A stretch of DNA of 64,000 nt from Deltaproteobacteria bacterium (lineage in GTDB: Bacteria; Myxococcota; Myxococcia; Myxococcales; Anaeromyxobacteraceae), in the NCBI GenBank assembly GCA_016214955.1, contig JACRMN010000013.1:124001-188000 (forward strand), read 5' to 3'. Position numbers and translations under genes: made by a program. Under the pieces are notes generated by a model. It was not told where the DNA came from and ran no database searches. It was given only the letters and a program-made list of their open reading frames with translations. Below, one piece after another: positions 5,201-58,217 of the stretch (positions are counted from its first letter, which is position 1; each line of letters starts with the position of its first letter).

Positions 5201-5740
5201 CTACTGCTTCATGCTCCGGCGCAGGGCCTCGAGCTGGGCGCGCAGCGAGCCGTCGTAGACCAGGCTGCCCACCTGGGCGACGACGCCGCCGAGCAGCGCC
5301 GGGTCGACGGCACGCTCCAGCAGCACCTGGGCGCCGGTGGCGGCGGCCAGCCTCTGGGAGAGGGCCTGGGCCTCGCCGTCGGCGAGCGGGACCGCGCTCG
5401 TGACCCTGGCGCGCACCCGGCCGAGCTTCCTGTCGGCGAGCTGGCCGAAGGTGTCGGCGATCCCGGACAGGTAGGCGAGCCGGTTCCGCTCGGCCAGCAG
5501 CGCCAGGAGGTGCGTGGGCTGCAGATCGAGCGAGAGGGCCGCGGCGAGCTTCCCGGCCACCGCCTGGCGCTGCTCCTTGGCGTAGACCGGGTTCTCGAGC
5601 AGGTCCTTCAGCTCGGGGGAGGAGGCCACGGCCTTCTGGAGGGCGGAAAGCCCCTCGGCCCAGGCCTCGACACGGCCCGCCTCGACCGCGAGGTCGAAGA
5701 GCGCCTTGGCGTAGCGCCGCGCGATGGATCCGACGATCAT
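5201..5740 (-). CDS. atpH: F1 ATP synthase delta subunit
   Basis: Delta is the peripheral-stalk connector on top of F1. I place the start at the ATG of MIVGSIARRYAKALFDLA (179 aa), since the SIARRYAKALF pattern normally sits within ten residues of the start; a GTG 21 bases upstream would add seven residues. The C-terminal half carries VDPALLGGVVAQVGSLVYDGSL, the best-conserved delta segment. It is the first gene of the leftward operon and is divergent from the Hsp20 gene. The F0 genes atpB, atpE and atpF are not next to it and not anywhere in the window. Confidence 0.93.
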   Translation of the reverse strand: MIVGSIARRYAKALFDLAVEAGRVEAWAEGLSALQKAVASSPELKDLLENPVYAKEQRQAVAGKLAAALSLDLQPTHLLALLAERNRLAYLSGIADTFGQLADRKLGRVRARVTSAVPLADGEAQALSQRLAAATGAQVLLERAVDPALLGGVVAQVGSLVYDGSLRAQLEALRRSMKQ

Positions 5741-10329: not shown

Positions 10330-10713
10330 CCCGCCCCCGACCGCCGCCCTCTCCAACCCTCCAGGAACCGGGCCCCCGGCCCCATACCCGCTCGGCCGAC
10401 TCCCGGTCGTTGTCGGGCAGCTCGGGATCGGTGAAGAGGTGACCGCCGCGGTGGAAATGGAGCTCCACCCGAGCCCCCAGCCCCACCAGCCCGCGCCGCC
10501 ACGCCCAAACCTCCTCGCGCGGCTCCCACGGGTCACCCTCGGCGAGATGGGCCTCCACCCTCCACGGCACCGGCAGGGCCGCCGCCACCTCCGCAACTCC
10601 GTGCAGCAGCAGCAGCCGCGAGAACCGGCCGCCGCCGGCCGCCAGCGCGCCGCGGCCGCCAGGTCCGCCGCCCGCAGCCCGTATGCCGAGTGGAGCAGCA
10701 CCACCTCCGCCAG
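10330..10713 (-). pseudogene. dienelactone-hydrolase-like remnant
   Basis: The right end reads AEVVLLHSAYGLRAADLAAA, matching the start of small dienelactone hydrolase family proteins, with CTG where a start would be. After about 20 codons the homology jumps and continues in another frame: LLLLHGVAEV, PWRVEAHLAEGDPWEP, then ARVELHFHRGGHLFTDPELP, the C-terminal catalytic-His region of that family. The central part with the nucleophile elbow is missing. The two pieces are therefore joined by an internal deletion plus a frame change. The family assignment is from motif recognition. Confidence 0.65.
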
Positions 10714-10769
10714 CGCGCCTCCCTGCGCCCGCCCTCGCGGCCCGTCGGGTCCCCCAACCGGCCGCTCCC

Positions 10770-11087
10770 GCCCGGCGCCAGCTGGATGAGCGCCACGCCC
10801 GCCACCACCACCGCCATGCCGGCCAGGCGCCAGCCGCCGAGCGCCTCGCCGAAGAGCAGCCACCCGGCCACCGCCGCCCCGGCCGTGCCCAGGCCCGACC
10901 AGACGGCCTAGGCGGCGCCCACCGGCATGGACCGCAGCACCACCGAGAGCAGGTAGAAGGCCGCCCCGTACCCCGCAACCACCACGGTACCGGGGCCAAC
11001 CCGCGTGAACCCGTCCGACGCCCTGAGGGCGGTGGTCCCGGCCACCTCGCAGGCGATGGCCGCCAGCAGCAGGAGGAACGTGGTCAT
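10770..11087 (-). pseudogene. SMR-family efflux pump gene interrupted by TAG at codon 60
   Basis: From ATG 11087 the frame reads LLLLAAIACEVAGTTALR, with the essential membrane Glu of small multidrug resistance pumps, then GFTRVGPG and SMPVGAA. TAG follows at 10908-10910, exactly codon 60, where EmrE has conserved Tyr60. The same frame resumes with AVWSGLGTAGAAVAGWLLFGE and GMAVVVAGVALIQLAP, so four transmembrane segments would be complete without the amber codon. No stop follows the expected C-terminus; the frame runs on into the neighbouring remnant. A TAC-to-TAG change explains the interruption. The missing terminal stop suggests further decay. Confidence 0.85.
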
Positions 11088-11137
11088 CCGTCCATCGCAT
11101 CACGATGGGTGACGTCCGGCAACGCCCACCCGCGCGC

Positions 11138-11785
11138 TCACGAGGCGTGGAACACCGCGTTCGCCCGCGCGGCCCCGGAGCGCGGCAGGCTGAACCGGTC
11201 CAGCCTCCCCAGCCGCAGGCCGGAGGCCGCCCCGAGCGCGGCCAGCGCCGCCTCGTCGGTCTCGCGCCCCAGCATCGCCACCAGCGCGCCGCCCTCGGCC
11301 AGGTACGCGGCGCCGAGCGGCAGCCAGCGAGCCGGGTCGGCGAGGGCCCGCGACACCACCACCTGGGCGCGCGGCAGTCCCTCGCGCTCCGGCTTCCCCC
11401 CGGCCCGCGCCGCCACCCCGCGCACCGGGAGGTCGAGCGCGGCGGCGGCGGCCTTCACGAAGGCCACCTTCTTCGCCACCGCGTCGCAGCAGGTGACCGC
11501 CAGCCCGGGCCGGGCGATGGCCAGCGGGATGCCCGGCAGGCCGGCGCCGCTCCCCACGTCGAGCAGCGTCTCCGCCGGCCCCAGCACGCGCAGCAGCGCC
11601 AGGCTGTCGAGGAGGTGAAGCTCCGCCACCTCGGCCGCGCCGGTCACCGCCGTCAGGTTGACCTTCCGGTTCCAGTGCAGCAGCAGGTCGGCGTACTGCT
11701 CCAGCCTCCCCGCGGCGCCCTCCGGCAGCGCCAGGCCCAGGGCCGGCAGTCCCACCGCCAGCACCTCGCGGAAGAGCGGGCCCAC
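11138..11785 (-). CDS. rsmG: 16S rRNA (guanine-527-N7) methyltransferase RsmG
   Basis: RsmG methylates G527 of 16S rRNA using S-adenosylmethionine. The 215-aa protein starts with GTG 11785. It shows the family pattern [13 protein letters not shown], the HLLDSLALL segment, SAM motif [18 protein letters not shown], and [14 protein letters not shown]. The length is normal. It lies 5 bases after the upstream small frame and ends the leftward rpmH-rnpA-yidD-yidC-jag group. Confidence 0.93.
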
Positions 11786-56043: not shown

Positions 56044-56445
56044 ATGAGCGAAGAGAATCGTCCCGGCGAGCAGAGCACGGTGGAGCAGGTCACCGAGAAG
56101 GTGAAGGAGATGGGCCAGACCATCGCCGCCGAGGCGCGGCAGGTGGCCGGCGAGGTGAGGGCCGAGGTGGCCCGCGCCCAGGAGGCGGTGGCCGAGAAGG
56201 CCGCCGCCGTGCAGGAGGCGGTGCAGGAGGGGACCGCCGCGGTGAAGCGGCAGGTGAAGCGCCGCGTCCGCGCCGCCAAGGCGAGCGCCAAGCGGACCGC
56301 GGCCCGGGCGAAGAAGGCGGTCGGCAAGGTCAGCGCCGCCGCCCGCAAGGCGGTGAAGGGCAAGAAGGCCGCGAAGAAGCCGGCCCGCAAGCCCGCCCGG
56401 AAGCCGGCGCGGAAGGCCCGGCCCGTCCGGCGGAAGAAGCGCTAG
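56044..56445 (+). CDS. histone-H1-like Lys/Ala-rich protein
   Basis: The 133-aa product (ATG 56044, GCAGGAGA upstream) has an acidic-basic helical N-terminus (about residues 10-75, with an Ala/Val/Glu heptad pattern like LEA or apolipoprotein helices). Its very basic C-terminus carries AKKAVGKV, KGKKAAKKPARKPARKPARK and RRKKR. The KPAR repeats resemble the tail of H1-like nucleoid proteins. DNA binding is likely; the helical half may oligomerise. It lies 198 bases before another Lys-rich gene. The 268-base spacer upstream contains nothing I can support. Confidence 0.65.
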   Translation: MSEENRPGEQSTVEQVTEKVKEMGQTIAAEARQVAGEVRAEVARAQEAVAEKAAAVQEAVQEGTAAVKRQVKRRVRAAKASAKRTAARAKKAVGKVSAAARKAVKGKKAAKKPARKPARKPARKARPVRRKKR

Positions 56446-56649
56446 CCGGCCCCTCGGGCGCGGTTGCCGCTGCGGCACGTCGGCGCAGGCCCCGGCGGCG
56501 CAACCGGTCATACTCCCTGCCTCTCCTCCGACGGCCGGCCGCCAGAAACGGCCGGCCCAGGGGGAGAGGAGCGCCTGGGAGGGAACCCATCCGGGCCCAC
56601 GGTGGCTCTCACCGGGCGCCCGTCTGCCCATCCCAGGAGGCAACACCTC

Positions 56650-56835
56650 ATGTCCTCGAAGCGTCTGCTCGCCATCGTCGCCGCCACCGCCTTCTCCACC
56701 GCCGCCGTGGCCGAGGAGGCCAGGAAGGAGGCCGCCAAGGTGGAGAAGAAGGAGGCCGCCAAGGAGAAGAAGGGCGAGAAGAAGGCGAAGGCCGAGCCGA
56801 AGAAGCCCCAGAAGCCGAAGCCCGAAGGCTGCTAG
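56650..56835 (+). CDS. small secreted Lys-rich peptide with C-terminal Cys
   Basis: The 61-aa product has a signal peptide (SSKRLLAIVAATAFSTAAVA) and a mature part of about 40 residues made almost only of Lys, Glu, Ala and Pro, ending KPKPEGC. A ribosome site (GGAGG) precedes the ATG. Twenty bases downstream begins the haem-motif rhodanese gene, so the two are probably co-transcribed. The single terminal Cys could be modified or linked. No family is recognised. Confidence 0.65.
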   Translation: MSSKRLLAIVAATAFSTAAVAEEARKEAAKVEKKEAAKEKKGEKKAKAEPKKPQKPKPEGC

Positions 56836-56855
56836 CCGCCAAGGAGGGGGAACCC

Positions 56856-58217
56856 ATGAACCGCATCGGAACCGGGGCGCTCGCGCTCGCCGCGGCGCTG
56901 GCCGCCACGGCCGCGTCCGCCGCCGAGAAGCCCGTCATCGCCAAGATCTGCACCAACTGCCACCAGCCCCAGGCCGGCAGCCTGCGCGGCTACTTCGACA
57001 GCGCGGCCTTCAAGTCGAGGTCCATCCAGATCCGCATGGACGACGCCGTCGAGATCGTCGCCTTCGACCCGGCCAGGCTCGAGGTGCTCGAGGGCGCCCG
57101 CAAGGAACCGGCCGAGTACCTGCGCCAGGTGAAGAAGAGCCACGAGATCCGCATCGCCTTCGAGGAGAAGGACGGCAAGAAGGTGGCCACGGCGGTGAGC
57201 CTCAAGCAGCCGATGAAGGTCCCCGCCGAGATGCTCATCACCACCGCCGAGCTCGAGAAGCTGGTGGCGCAGGGGCCGGAGAAGGGGGCCTACACCCTCA
57301 TCGACTCGCGGCCCCTGCCCCGCTTCCAGGAGGGCTTCATCCCCACCGCCCAGAACCTGCCCTTCCCGGCGTTCGACAAGCTCCAGGACAAGCTGCCCAC
57401 CGACAAGGCGCGCCTGCTCGTCTTCTACTGCGCCGGCCCCACCTGCTCCATGAGCCCGAAGTCGGCCGACAAGGCCAAGGCGCTGGGCTACACCAACGTG
57501 CGCGTCTACCACGAGGGCATGCCCGCCTGGTCGAAGGGCCACTTCGGCCTCCTCGCCGCCCAGCACCTCAAGGAGGCCTGGATCGACAAGGACATCCCGG
57601 CCGTGCTGCTCGACGTCCGCCCCGCCGACGAGGCCGAGAAGGGCTTCATCCAGGGCGCGGTGGGCATGCCCGCGGGCGCCCTCGCCAAGGGCCTCAGGAC
57701 CCTGCCGCCGGCCGACAAGAAGGCGCCCATCATCGTCTACGGCGCCGGCCAGGAGGCCGAGCAGGCGGCCGCCAGGATCATCGCCGCCGGGCAGTCGAAC
57801 GTGAAGGTGCTGGCGGGCGGCTTCGAGGCCTGGAAGTCGGCCGGCTACCCGGTGGCCACCGGCAAGCTGGGCAGGAAGGTGGCCTGGGCGCCGAAGCCGC
57901 GGCCGGGCGAGATCGCCTGGGACGAGTTCACCAGGCTGGCGAAGAAGATCCCGGCCGACACCCTGATCCTCGACGTCCGCAACGACGACGAGGCCCAGTC
58001 CGGCATGATCCACGGCGCCAGGCAGATCCCGGCCGAGGACCTGGAGAAGCGGCTCGCCGAGCTGCCCAGGGACAAGCGCATCGTGGCCCACTGCTCCACC
58101 GGCGTGCGGGCCGAGATGGCCTACCACCTGCTGAAGGAGAAGGGCTTCGAGAAGCTGGCCTTCCTCAACGGCAACATCGCCATCGACAACAGGGGGCGGT
58201 TCAAGCTCTCCAGGTAG
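56856..58217 (+). CDS. periplasmic haem-motif protein with three rhodanese domains
   Basis: The 453-aa product (ATG 56856, AAGGAGG upstream) has a signal peptide (residues 1-22) and a CxxCH haem-binding motif CTNCH at 32-36. A domain of unknown fold covers about 37-125. Three rhodanese-like domains follow. Domain 1 (about 130-230) has Cys192 in FYCAGPTCSM. Domain 2 (about 240-335) has IVYGAGQEAE, with no active Cys. Domain 3 (about 355-450) has VAHCSTGVRAEMAY with Cys. Periplasmic sulfur transfer coupled to electron transfer is suggested but not shown. A strong hairpin follows. Confidence 0.85.
   Translation: MNRIGTGALALAAALAATAASAAEKPVIAKICTNCHQPQAGSLRGYFDSAAFKSRSIQIRMDDAVEIVAFDPARLEVLEGARKEPAEYLRQVKKSHEIRIAFEEKDGKKVATAVSLKQPMKVPAEMLITTAELEKLVAQGPEKGAYTLIDSRPLPRFQEGFIPTAQNLPFPAFDKLQDKLPTDKARLLVFYCAGPTCSMSPKSADKAKALGYTNVRVYHEGMPAWSKGHFGLLAAQHLKEAWIDKDIPAVLLDVRPADEAEKGFIQGAVGMPAGALAKGLRTLPPADKKAPIIVYGAGQEAEQAAARIIAAGQSNVKVLAGGFEAWKSAGYPVATGKLGRKVAWAPKPRPGEIAWDEFTRLAKKIPADTLILDVRNDDEAQSGMIHGARQIPAEDLEKRLAELPRDKRIVAHCSTGVRAEMAYHLLKEKGFEKLAFLNGNIAIDNRGRFKLSR

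Follow-up and report, generated by a model that had tools for sequence, protein, structure and literature searches.

In the window, the 64,000-nucleotide stretch of Anaeromyxobacteraceae DNA analysed here (contig JACRMN010000013.1), a small Lys-rich peptide with a C-terminal Gly-Cys is encoded directly upstream of an exported protein that combines a CxxCH motif, a predicted OB-fold domain and three rhodanese domains. Comparison of the homologous loci supports the Cys-ended peptide as a recurring partner of this rhodanese family, in which the second cysteine of the first rhodanese loop is replaced by probable selenocysteine in many members.

Of the three consecutive rightward ORFs described in an earlier note on this DNA, all are present: an H1-like protein (56044-56445, + strand, 133 aa, Lys/Arg/Ala-rich, signal peptide absent), the Cys-ended peptide and the CxxCH-triple-rhodanese protein (Table 1). 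The peptide is rich in Lys and Glu (25% Lys), has an N-terminus that looks signal-like by eye (SKRLLAIVAATAFSTAAVA/EE), contains its sole Cys as residue 61 in the C-terminal sequence PEGC, and gave no match to any Pfam family. The rhodanese gene starts 20 nt 3' of the peptide stop, and AGGAGG precedes both ATGs, with a spacing of 9 nt for the peptide gene. Judging by their sequences, both proteins are probably exported. A promoter and terminator scan of the region found nothing, and gene recognition beside the pair revealed no sulfur-related, porin or multihaem neighbour. The three genes had been taken for one unit. In another Anaeromyxobacteraceae genome (locus L031), a 68%-identical protein is preceded by a 70-aa Lys-rich peptide ending in EGC; the search for the gene order in other genomes thus recovered the peptide-rhodanese pair. 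In L031 nothing H1-like stands ahead of the pair, and on this ground the gene was excluded from the unit. Features described below that had not been noted before are the selenocysteine form, an OB fold and additional Gly-Cys-ended scaffolds.

Table 1 Positions of the features of the peptide-rhodanese pair within the window.
Feature	Position	Strand	Basis
Shine-Dalgarno-like AGGAGG, peptide gene	56635..56640	+	sequence
Exported Lys/Glu-rich peptide, 61 aa, lone terminal Cys (...PEGC)	56650..56835	+	sequence; counterpart in L031
Signal-peptide-like N-terminus, peptide residues 1-21, AVA/EE	56650..56712	+	by eye
Gly60-Cys61 codons, proposed carrier arm	56827..56832	+	GC ends recur in relatives
Shine-Dalgarno-like AGGAGG, rhodanese gene	56842..56847	+	sequence
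Exported CxxCH-OB-triple-rhodanese protein, 453 aa	56856..58217	+	sequence, Pfam, AlphaFold2
CTNCH, residues 32-36, probable haem c attachment motif	56949..56963	+	99/99 aligned full-length homologs
Predicted OB-fold domain, residues 41-117	56976..57206	+	AlphaFold2 order b1-b2-b3-a-b4-b5
Rhodanese domain 1, about residues 129-229	57240..57542	+	Pfam, AlphaFold2, structure comparison
CAGPTC loop, C192-C197; second Cys is Sec in 39 homologs	57429..57446	+	homolog alignment
Rhodanese domain 2, about residues 236-337, loop without Cys	57561..57866	+	Pfam, sequence
Rhodanese domain 3, about residues 354-446	57915..58193	+	Pfam, structure comparison
C413, catalytic-type Cys of domain 3 (HCSTGVRAEM)	58092..58094	+	invariant 99/99

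The Pfam Rhodanese family (PF00581) was recognised in three stretches of the larger protein (E 9.9e-47, 158 bits against a gathering score of 22.2). The corresponding loops read CAGPTC, IVYGAGQ and HCSTGVRAEM, with a loop Cys in domains 1 and 3 and none in domain 2, and the rhodanese domain that had been described as devoid of a catalytic Cys is evidently the middle one. In the AlphaFold2 model (17 sequences; mean pLDDT 83.8, pTM 0.66) an OB-like strand order was predicted at about residues 42-116, followed by the rhodanese folds; residues 1-30 have a pLDDT below 50, and the block 31-40 with the CTNCH region averages 63. The top structural neighbours, in a comparison which bears little on residues 1-124, include EanB, YnjE and PA 1yt8.

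C32, C35 and H36 of the haem motif were each found in 99/99 aligned full-length homologs. Among the 12 rows that the class counts did not include or the CxxCH script had missed, 9 carry CX4CH instead (L165, L168, L172-L174, L180, L181, L184 and L185) and 3 carry CxxCH. Both spacings are known from c-type cytochromes. The features of an exported c-type cytochrome are present as far as the motif (CTNCH) and the signal peptide, as judged by eye, are concerned; a second axial Met or His conserved within the haem domain was not found across the 99 aligned rows, H96 occurring in 55/99 and K53 in 95/99. Since CxxCH is invariant and the CX2CH and CX4CH spacings alternate, haem c is favoured, and the haem binding claimed at the outset can be retained as likely on this comparative evidence. 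That the motif is a CxxC redox pair or a metal site with an incidental His and without haem would agree with the variable second axial ligand and with the position of the motif in a low-confidence part of the model; against the invariance of the His (99/99) and the CX2CH/CX4CH alternation we consider it distinctly improbable.

The alignment of the window protein with 16 full-length homologs gave identities of 50-68%; these homologs originate from MAGs labelled Anaeromyxobacter, Nitrospirae, Geobacteraceae/Desulfuromonadales, Deltaproteobacteria, Burkholderiales and Oligoflexia. The search of 60 genomes returned a single near full-length homolog, in genome G023 of the same family as the window genome. 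The rhodanese family was found in Desulfuromonadia and Nitrospirota and rarely in Myxococcota and others. The haem-domain profile A3 matched 63/277 genomes of the class of G069, 46/295 of the phylum of G062, 16/297 of the phylum of G074 (including three already contained in the first set) and 2/195 Myxococcota genomes. Furthermore, one match each was obtained in the order of G072 (1/300) and the phylum of G073 (1/191), where the family must be rare because the single matches are the seed genomes themselves. With the 68%-identical counterpart including its peptide, and with a family that recurs over several phyla, the pair in the window is not a product of chance.

For the class counts 108 unique rows were used, comprising 51 Cys-type, 39 Sec-type, 11 other and 7 left out for length (L106, L154, L165, L170, L172, L173 and L174); five loci in which the CxxCH script found no motif (L168, L180, L181, L184 and L185) were uncounted, and the incomplete sequences L084 and L142 were left out of the 99-row motif alignment. 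The loci read are a part of the matches from the 60-genome, ExtJ and phylum-of-G062 searches. All counts refer to sampled genomes, many of them MAGs, with home-made ORF calling and with signal peptides assigned visually or with a crude script. Two deviating groups were seen. L136-L140 stand apart as a subfamily in which the CxxCH motif reads CAGCH, the loop of domain 1 is shortened to CVGGC and the upstream Gly-Cys partner is absent; L101 (CTGPTD) and L127 (no loop) have lost the CxGxxC of domain 1 and retain an upstream partner ending in FKKTAGC.

The catalytic-type C413 is invariant in the 99 aligned rows and C192 is present in 97/99. The position of C197 is occupied by Cys in 50 rows and by Sec in 39, and the Sec-type, 39/90 of the classed members, has TGA in frame where the second Cys of CxGxxC would be encoded (L032-L035, L045, L123-L126, L128-L131, L133, L134 and others). 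Among the first 16 homologs five had TGA at this position, and selB scored above the cut-off in all five genomes. The window has TGC rather than TGA at C197; its genome nonetheless contains selB. A hairpin was located about 17 nt 3' of the TGA, and the predicted folding of the Sec stretches was slightly more stable than that of the Cys stretches, with a median z of -0.69 vs -0.35 (Mann-Whitney p 0.008) in a home-made shuffle that is not SECIS-specific. The TGA-containing homologs are likely the selenocysteine form of the haem-bearing rhodanese. In L154, which is outside the counts because of its length, two in-frame TGAs give a loop, UGGYHU, that resembles the UxxxxU of TsoB.

Within 400 nt upstream of the rhodanese gene an ORF ending in Gly-Cys (GC) was found for 34/51 Cys-type and 0/39 Sec-type rows, compared to a background of 13/1294 among the ORFs elsewhere in the same loci. 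When loci with wide flanks were considered, a GC-ended exported protein or tail was present in 21/25 Cys-type vs 0/9 Sec-type loci, the 21 including L044, where the tail belongs to the rhodanese itself, and L199 and L200 with proteins of the ExtJ type (L199 above the ExtJ cut-off); Fisher's test, which ignores ancestry, gave p 1.4e-5. Three hits of this wide-flank scan are likely false positives (an antisense ORF in L046 and one each in L199 and L200), and the Cys-type loci without a GC-ended protein are L043, L194, L201 and L204.

The GC ends were observed on four scaffolds, namely Lys-rich peptides, OB-fold proteins, ExtJ, and a tail fused to the rhodanese, the last being represented by L044 with its Lys-rich ...KKRARSEGC end. 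These scaffolds may be convergent or unrelated. Most Geobacteria homologs have an exported protein of ~107 aa ending in FKKTAGC directly upstream, an end that is invariant in set A2 (7/7) and shared by all OB-GC ends listed in the upstream scan except that of L110 (FKKSAGC). Its model shows an OB fold (pLDDT 74), for which Foldseek returned no match under 0.001 and OB folds including CcmE as best neighbours; when aligned with the OB domain of the haem-bearing rhodanese by hhalign, the probability was 21% and E 0.001 over 24 columns, with the same predicted strand order. For the Lys-rich exported ORFs, a search blind to the C-terminus revealed that 12/13 in rhodanese loci end in GC and contain a single Cys, and an additional Lys-rich GC end was found in the Burkholderiales PhsA locus L225. 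The two ORFs fetched for likeness to the window peptide (L226 and L227) both end in K and lack Cys; the former (bases 5566-5733) is a further Lys-rich exported peptide of the window genome, on contig C27. In L203 (bases 10600-11250) a Lys-rich start and a KEAAGC end lie in different frames, perhaps owing to an assembly error, for which reason this locus was not counted as Lys-GC; it was counted for OB-GC.

On a quick tree, Sec and Cys change 4 times and the GC partner 7 times, leaving 2-4 independent pairs and a sign test p of 1, numbers at which such a test is powerless. With so few independent contrasts the association of Cys or Sec with the carrier was rejected as proof, and as Sec/Cys changes just 4 times on the tree, the link between Sec and the carrier may be one of ancestry.

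In Geobacteria the rhodanese genes occur with a PhsA-like molybdoenzyme, NrfD, FeS, c7 and octahaem cytochromes, and a DUF3373 porin, and the neighbours include octahaem tetrathionate-reductase-family genes. The orientation varies, being convergent for example in L196 and L197. Immediately beyond the FeS or c7 gene of this operon, a Lys-rich GC peptide is encoded in L038-L040, L193, L195-L198 and L202; likewise, a Burkholderiales genome with the rhodanese has a Lys-rich ...KKGGC peptide ~2 kb past the FeS gene of its PhsA locus. A PsrA/PhsA-FeS-NrfD operon adjoins the rhodanese in several Geobacteria loci and is absent at the window pair, the window genome having a PhsA homolog (48% identical) on a different contig. 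No informative gene was seen beside the Nitrospirota copies. Co-occurrence with PhsA within Anaeromyxobacteraceae was considered and rejected, since PhsA is found in 15/24 family genomes and the rhodanese in two, corresponding to 2/195 genomes of the phylum. The sulfur handling coupled to electron flow that the earlier note had suggested gains plausibility from the Geobacteria gene context; selenium or tellurium would be an alternative substrate in view of ExtJ.

We give an even chance to an extracytoplasmic relay for sulfane sulfur (or selenium) in which the rhodanese loads the Cys-ended carrier and the haem provides the link to electron flow. The comparison shows the domain architecture, the invariance of the motifs, the Sec/Cys exchange at the sequence level and the repeated occurrence of Cys-type enzymes with GC-ended exported proteins; from export and haem attachment to the persulfide transfer, the partners, the acceptor and the direction of flow, the scheme that follows is inferred. 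Domain 1, domain 3 or both would be charged with sulfane sulfur by thiosulfate, polysulfide or a persulfide. The small exported peptide would receive this sulfur on its terminal Gly-Cys arm and, as a flexible thiol carrier, bring it to the enzyme that accepts it. In domain 1, the CxGxxC pair (in many relatives CxGxxSec) would release or reduce the bound sulfur by closing into a disulfide or, with Sec, a selenosulfide. Electrons would be exchanged with the periplasmic cytochrome pool through the haem, which would be carried by the N-terminal OB domain. The sulfur or thiol carrier role already suspected for the peptide is strengthened by the recurring association and by the fused ...EGC tail of L044, and is still to be regarded as putative.

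An unlikely reading, though one to be reckoned with, is the handling of selenite and tellurite or of soft metals, in which the rhodanese and the GC proteins would act in the periplasm on Se/Te oxyanions or thiophilic metals, by binding or by reduction, as in the ext system of Geobacter. It draws on ExtJ of the ext cluster being one of the GC-ended scaffolds (5/5 members above the cut-off end in -GC), on L199, where ExtJ and the rhodanese lie within the same 16 kb, and on ExtI having been tied to selenite/tellurite reduction in the parts of the report consulted (PMC5877670). The window rhodanese is, however, not ExtH and the window peptide is unmatched by ExtJ, and the Geobacteria neighbours (PhsA/NrfD/FeS and octahaem tetrathionate-reductase-family genes) point elsewhere.

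Still less probable is a thiol-disulfide redox or repair pair, with the CxGxxC/U rhodanese reducing persulfides, S-sulfonates or disulfides and the GC peptide serving as thiol reductant. The Sec/Cys exchange at the second loop residue, of a kind typical of redox sites, and a weak likeness to the rhodanese/DsbD selenoprotein TsoB (82.9 bits, cut-off 805) would be explained by such a pair, but domain 3 keeps its sulfurtransferase-type Cys loop in 99/99 rows, and a single Cys per peptide fits carriage better than dithiol reduction. We would be more surprised yet if the Lys-rich peptide were an unrelated structural or acid-stress-type basic peptide with an incidental Cys end, leaving the rhodanese to act alone. 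Weak Asr-like matches of Lys-rich low-complexity peptides, the Cys-less Lys-rich exported peptide in the same genome (L226) and the Cys-type loci lacking any GC protein are in line with this; the GC ends on four scaffolds beside one enzyme family, against the background of 13/1294, and the 12/13 of the search blind to the C-terminus argue against it.

Going further than the relay itself, we tentatively put forward, as a possibility that we would not yet bet on, an unnamed class of extracytoplasmic chalcogen carriers, in which scaffolds of unrelated build, namely disordered Lys-rich chains, OB folds, small ExtJ-type proteins and a tail of the enzyme, would have a single Gly-Cys at the C-terminus in common and would receive their load from haem-bearing rhodaneses, the Sec-rhodanese lineages being without carrier. 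If true, the 'hypothetical' ExtJ-like and Lys-rich proteins that metal- and sulfur-reducing bacteria export would acquire a concrete and testable role, and a haem-wired periplasmic sulfur/selenium carrier system would be gained together with a natural Sec/Cys experiment within one family. If the carrier idea fails, a haem-OB-rhodanese family with Sec/Cys exchange remains as an uncharacterised redox enzyme (63/277 and 46/295 sampled genomes).

In the open-access literature we recognised no haem-rhodanese fusion, no Cys-ended Lys-rich carrier and no haem/Sec rhodanese. The multi-rhodanese sulfurtransferases EanB, YnjE and PA 1yt8 share the tandem rhodanese domains with the window protein; to our knowledge, neither a haem motif nor an OB domain has been described for them. 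In the table rows seen of PMC13188914, a predicted rhodanese selenoprotein 'form 1' (UxxS) and TsoB (UxxxxU) are listed. Form 1 has Sec at the loop position equivalent to C197 followed by xxS, as in the Sec-type relatives; the rows, by which alone the two were compared, do not mention haem, an OB domain or three rhodaneses, and the window has Cys. Against the TsoB model the window rhodanese reached 82.9 bits, far from the cut-off of 805.

The extHIJ genes of Geobacter resemble the window pair in that an exported rhodanese stands beside a small exported protein, and differ in the porin gene, which was not recognised beside the window pair; in the parts seen of PMC5877670, extH-extI-extJ correspond to rhodanese, porin and small protein. 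ExtH is a lipoprotein and ExtJ is periplasmic. Identification of the window proteins as ExtH and ExtJ was rejected by the model scores: 11.9 bits for ExtH (NF040901, cut-off 200), and the peptide not among the ExtJ matches at E 0.1 (NF040942, cut-off 52.5 bits). According to the sections consulted of Otero et al. (PMC6148476), other rhodaneses, <40% identical to ExtH, accompany extIJKL in 10/18 clusters. The ExtJ members above the cut-off that were read (L047-L050 and L199) all end in -GC, a feature on which the ext papers, as far as seen, do not remark.

SoxY, according to the part seen of PMC6067878, carries sulfur on the Cys of a Gly-flanked C-terminal arm, GGCGG. The window peptide, in contrast, ends in PEGC, and its counterparts likewise stop at -GC, in place of GGCGG. 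In the Geobacteria members, the rhodanese family adjoins an operon of the PsrA/PhsA-FeS-NrfD type, which recalls Sud and PsrABC. Sud of Wolinella is a periplasmic rhodanese-type sulfur carrier that feeds the PsrA/PhsA-FeS-NrfD reductase (PsrABC); it has one rhodanese domain and is not known to possess a haem motif or a Cys-ended peptide. The proposed relay from the rhodanese to a Cys-ended carrier would operate in the manner of SoxY, with its Gly-flanked Cys arm, and of Sud with PsrABC.
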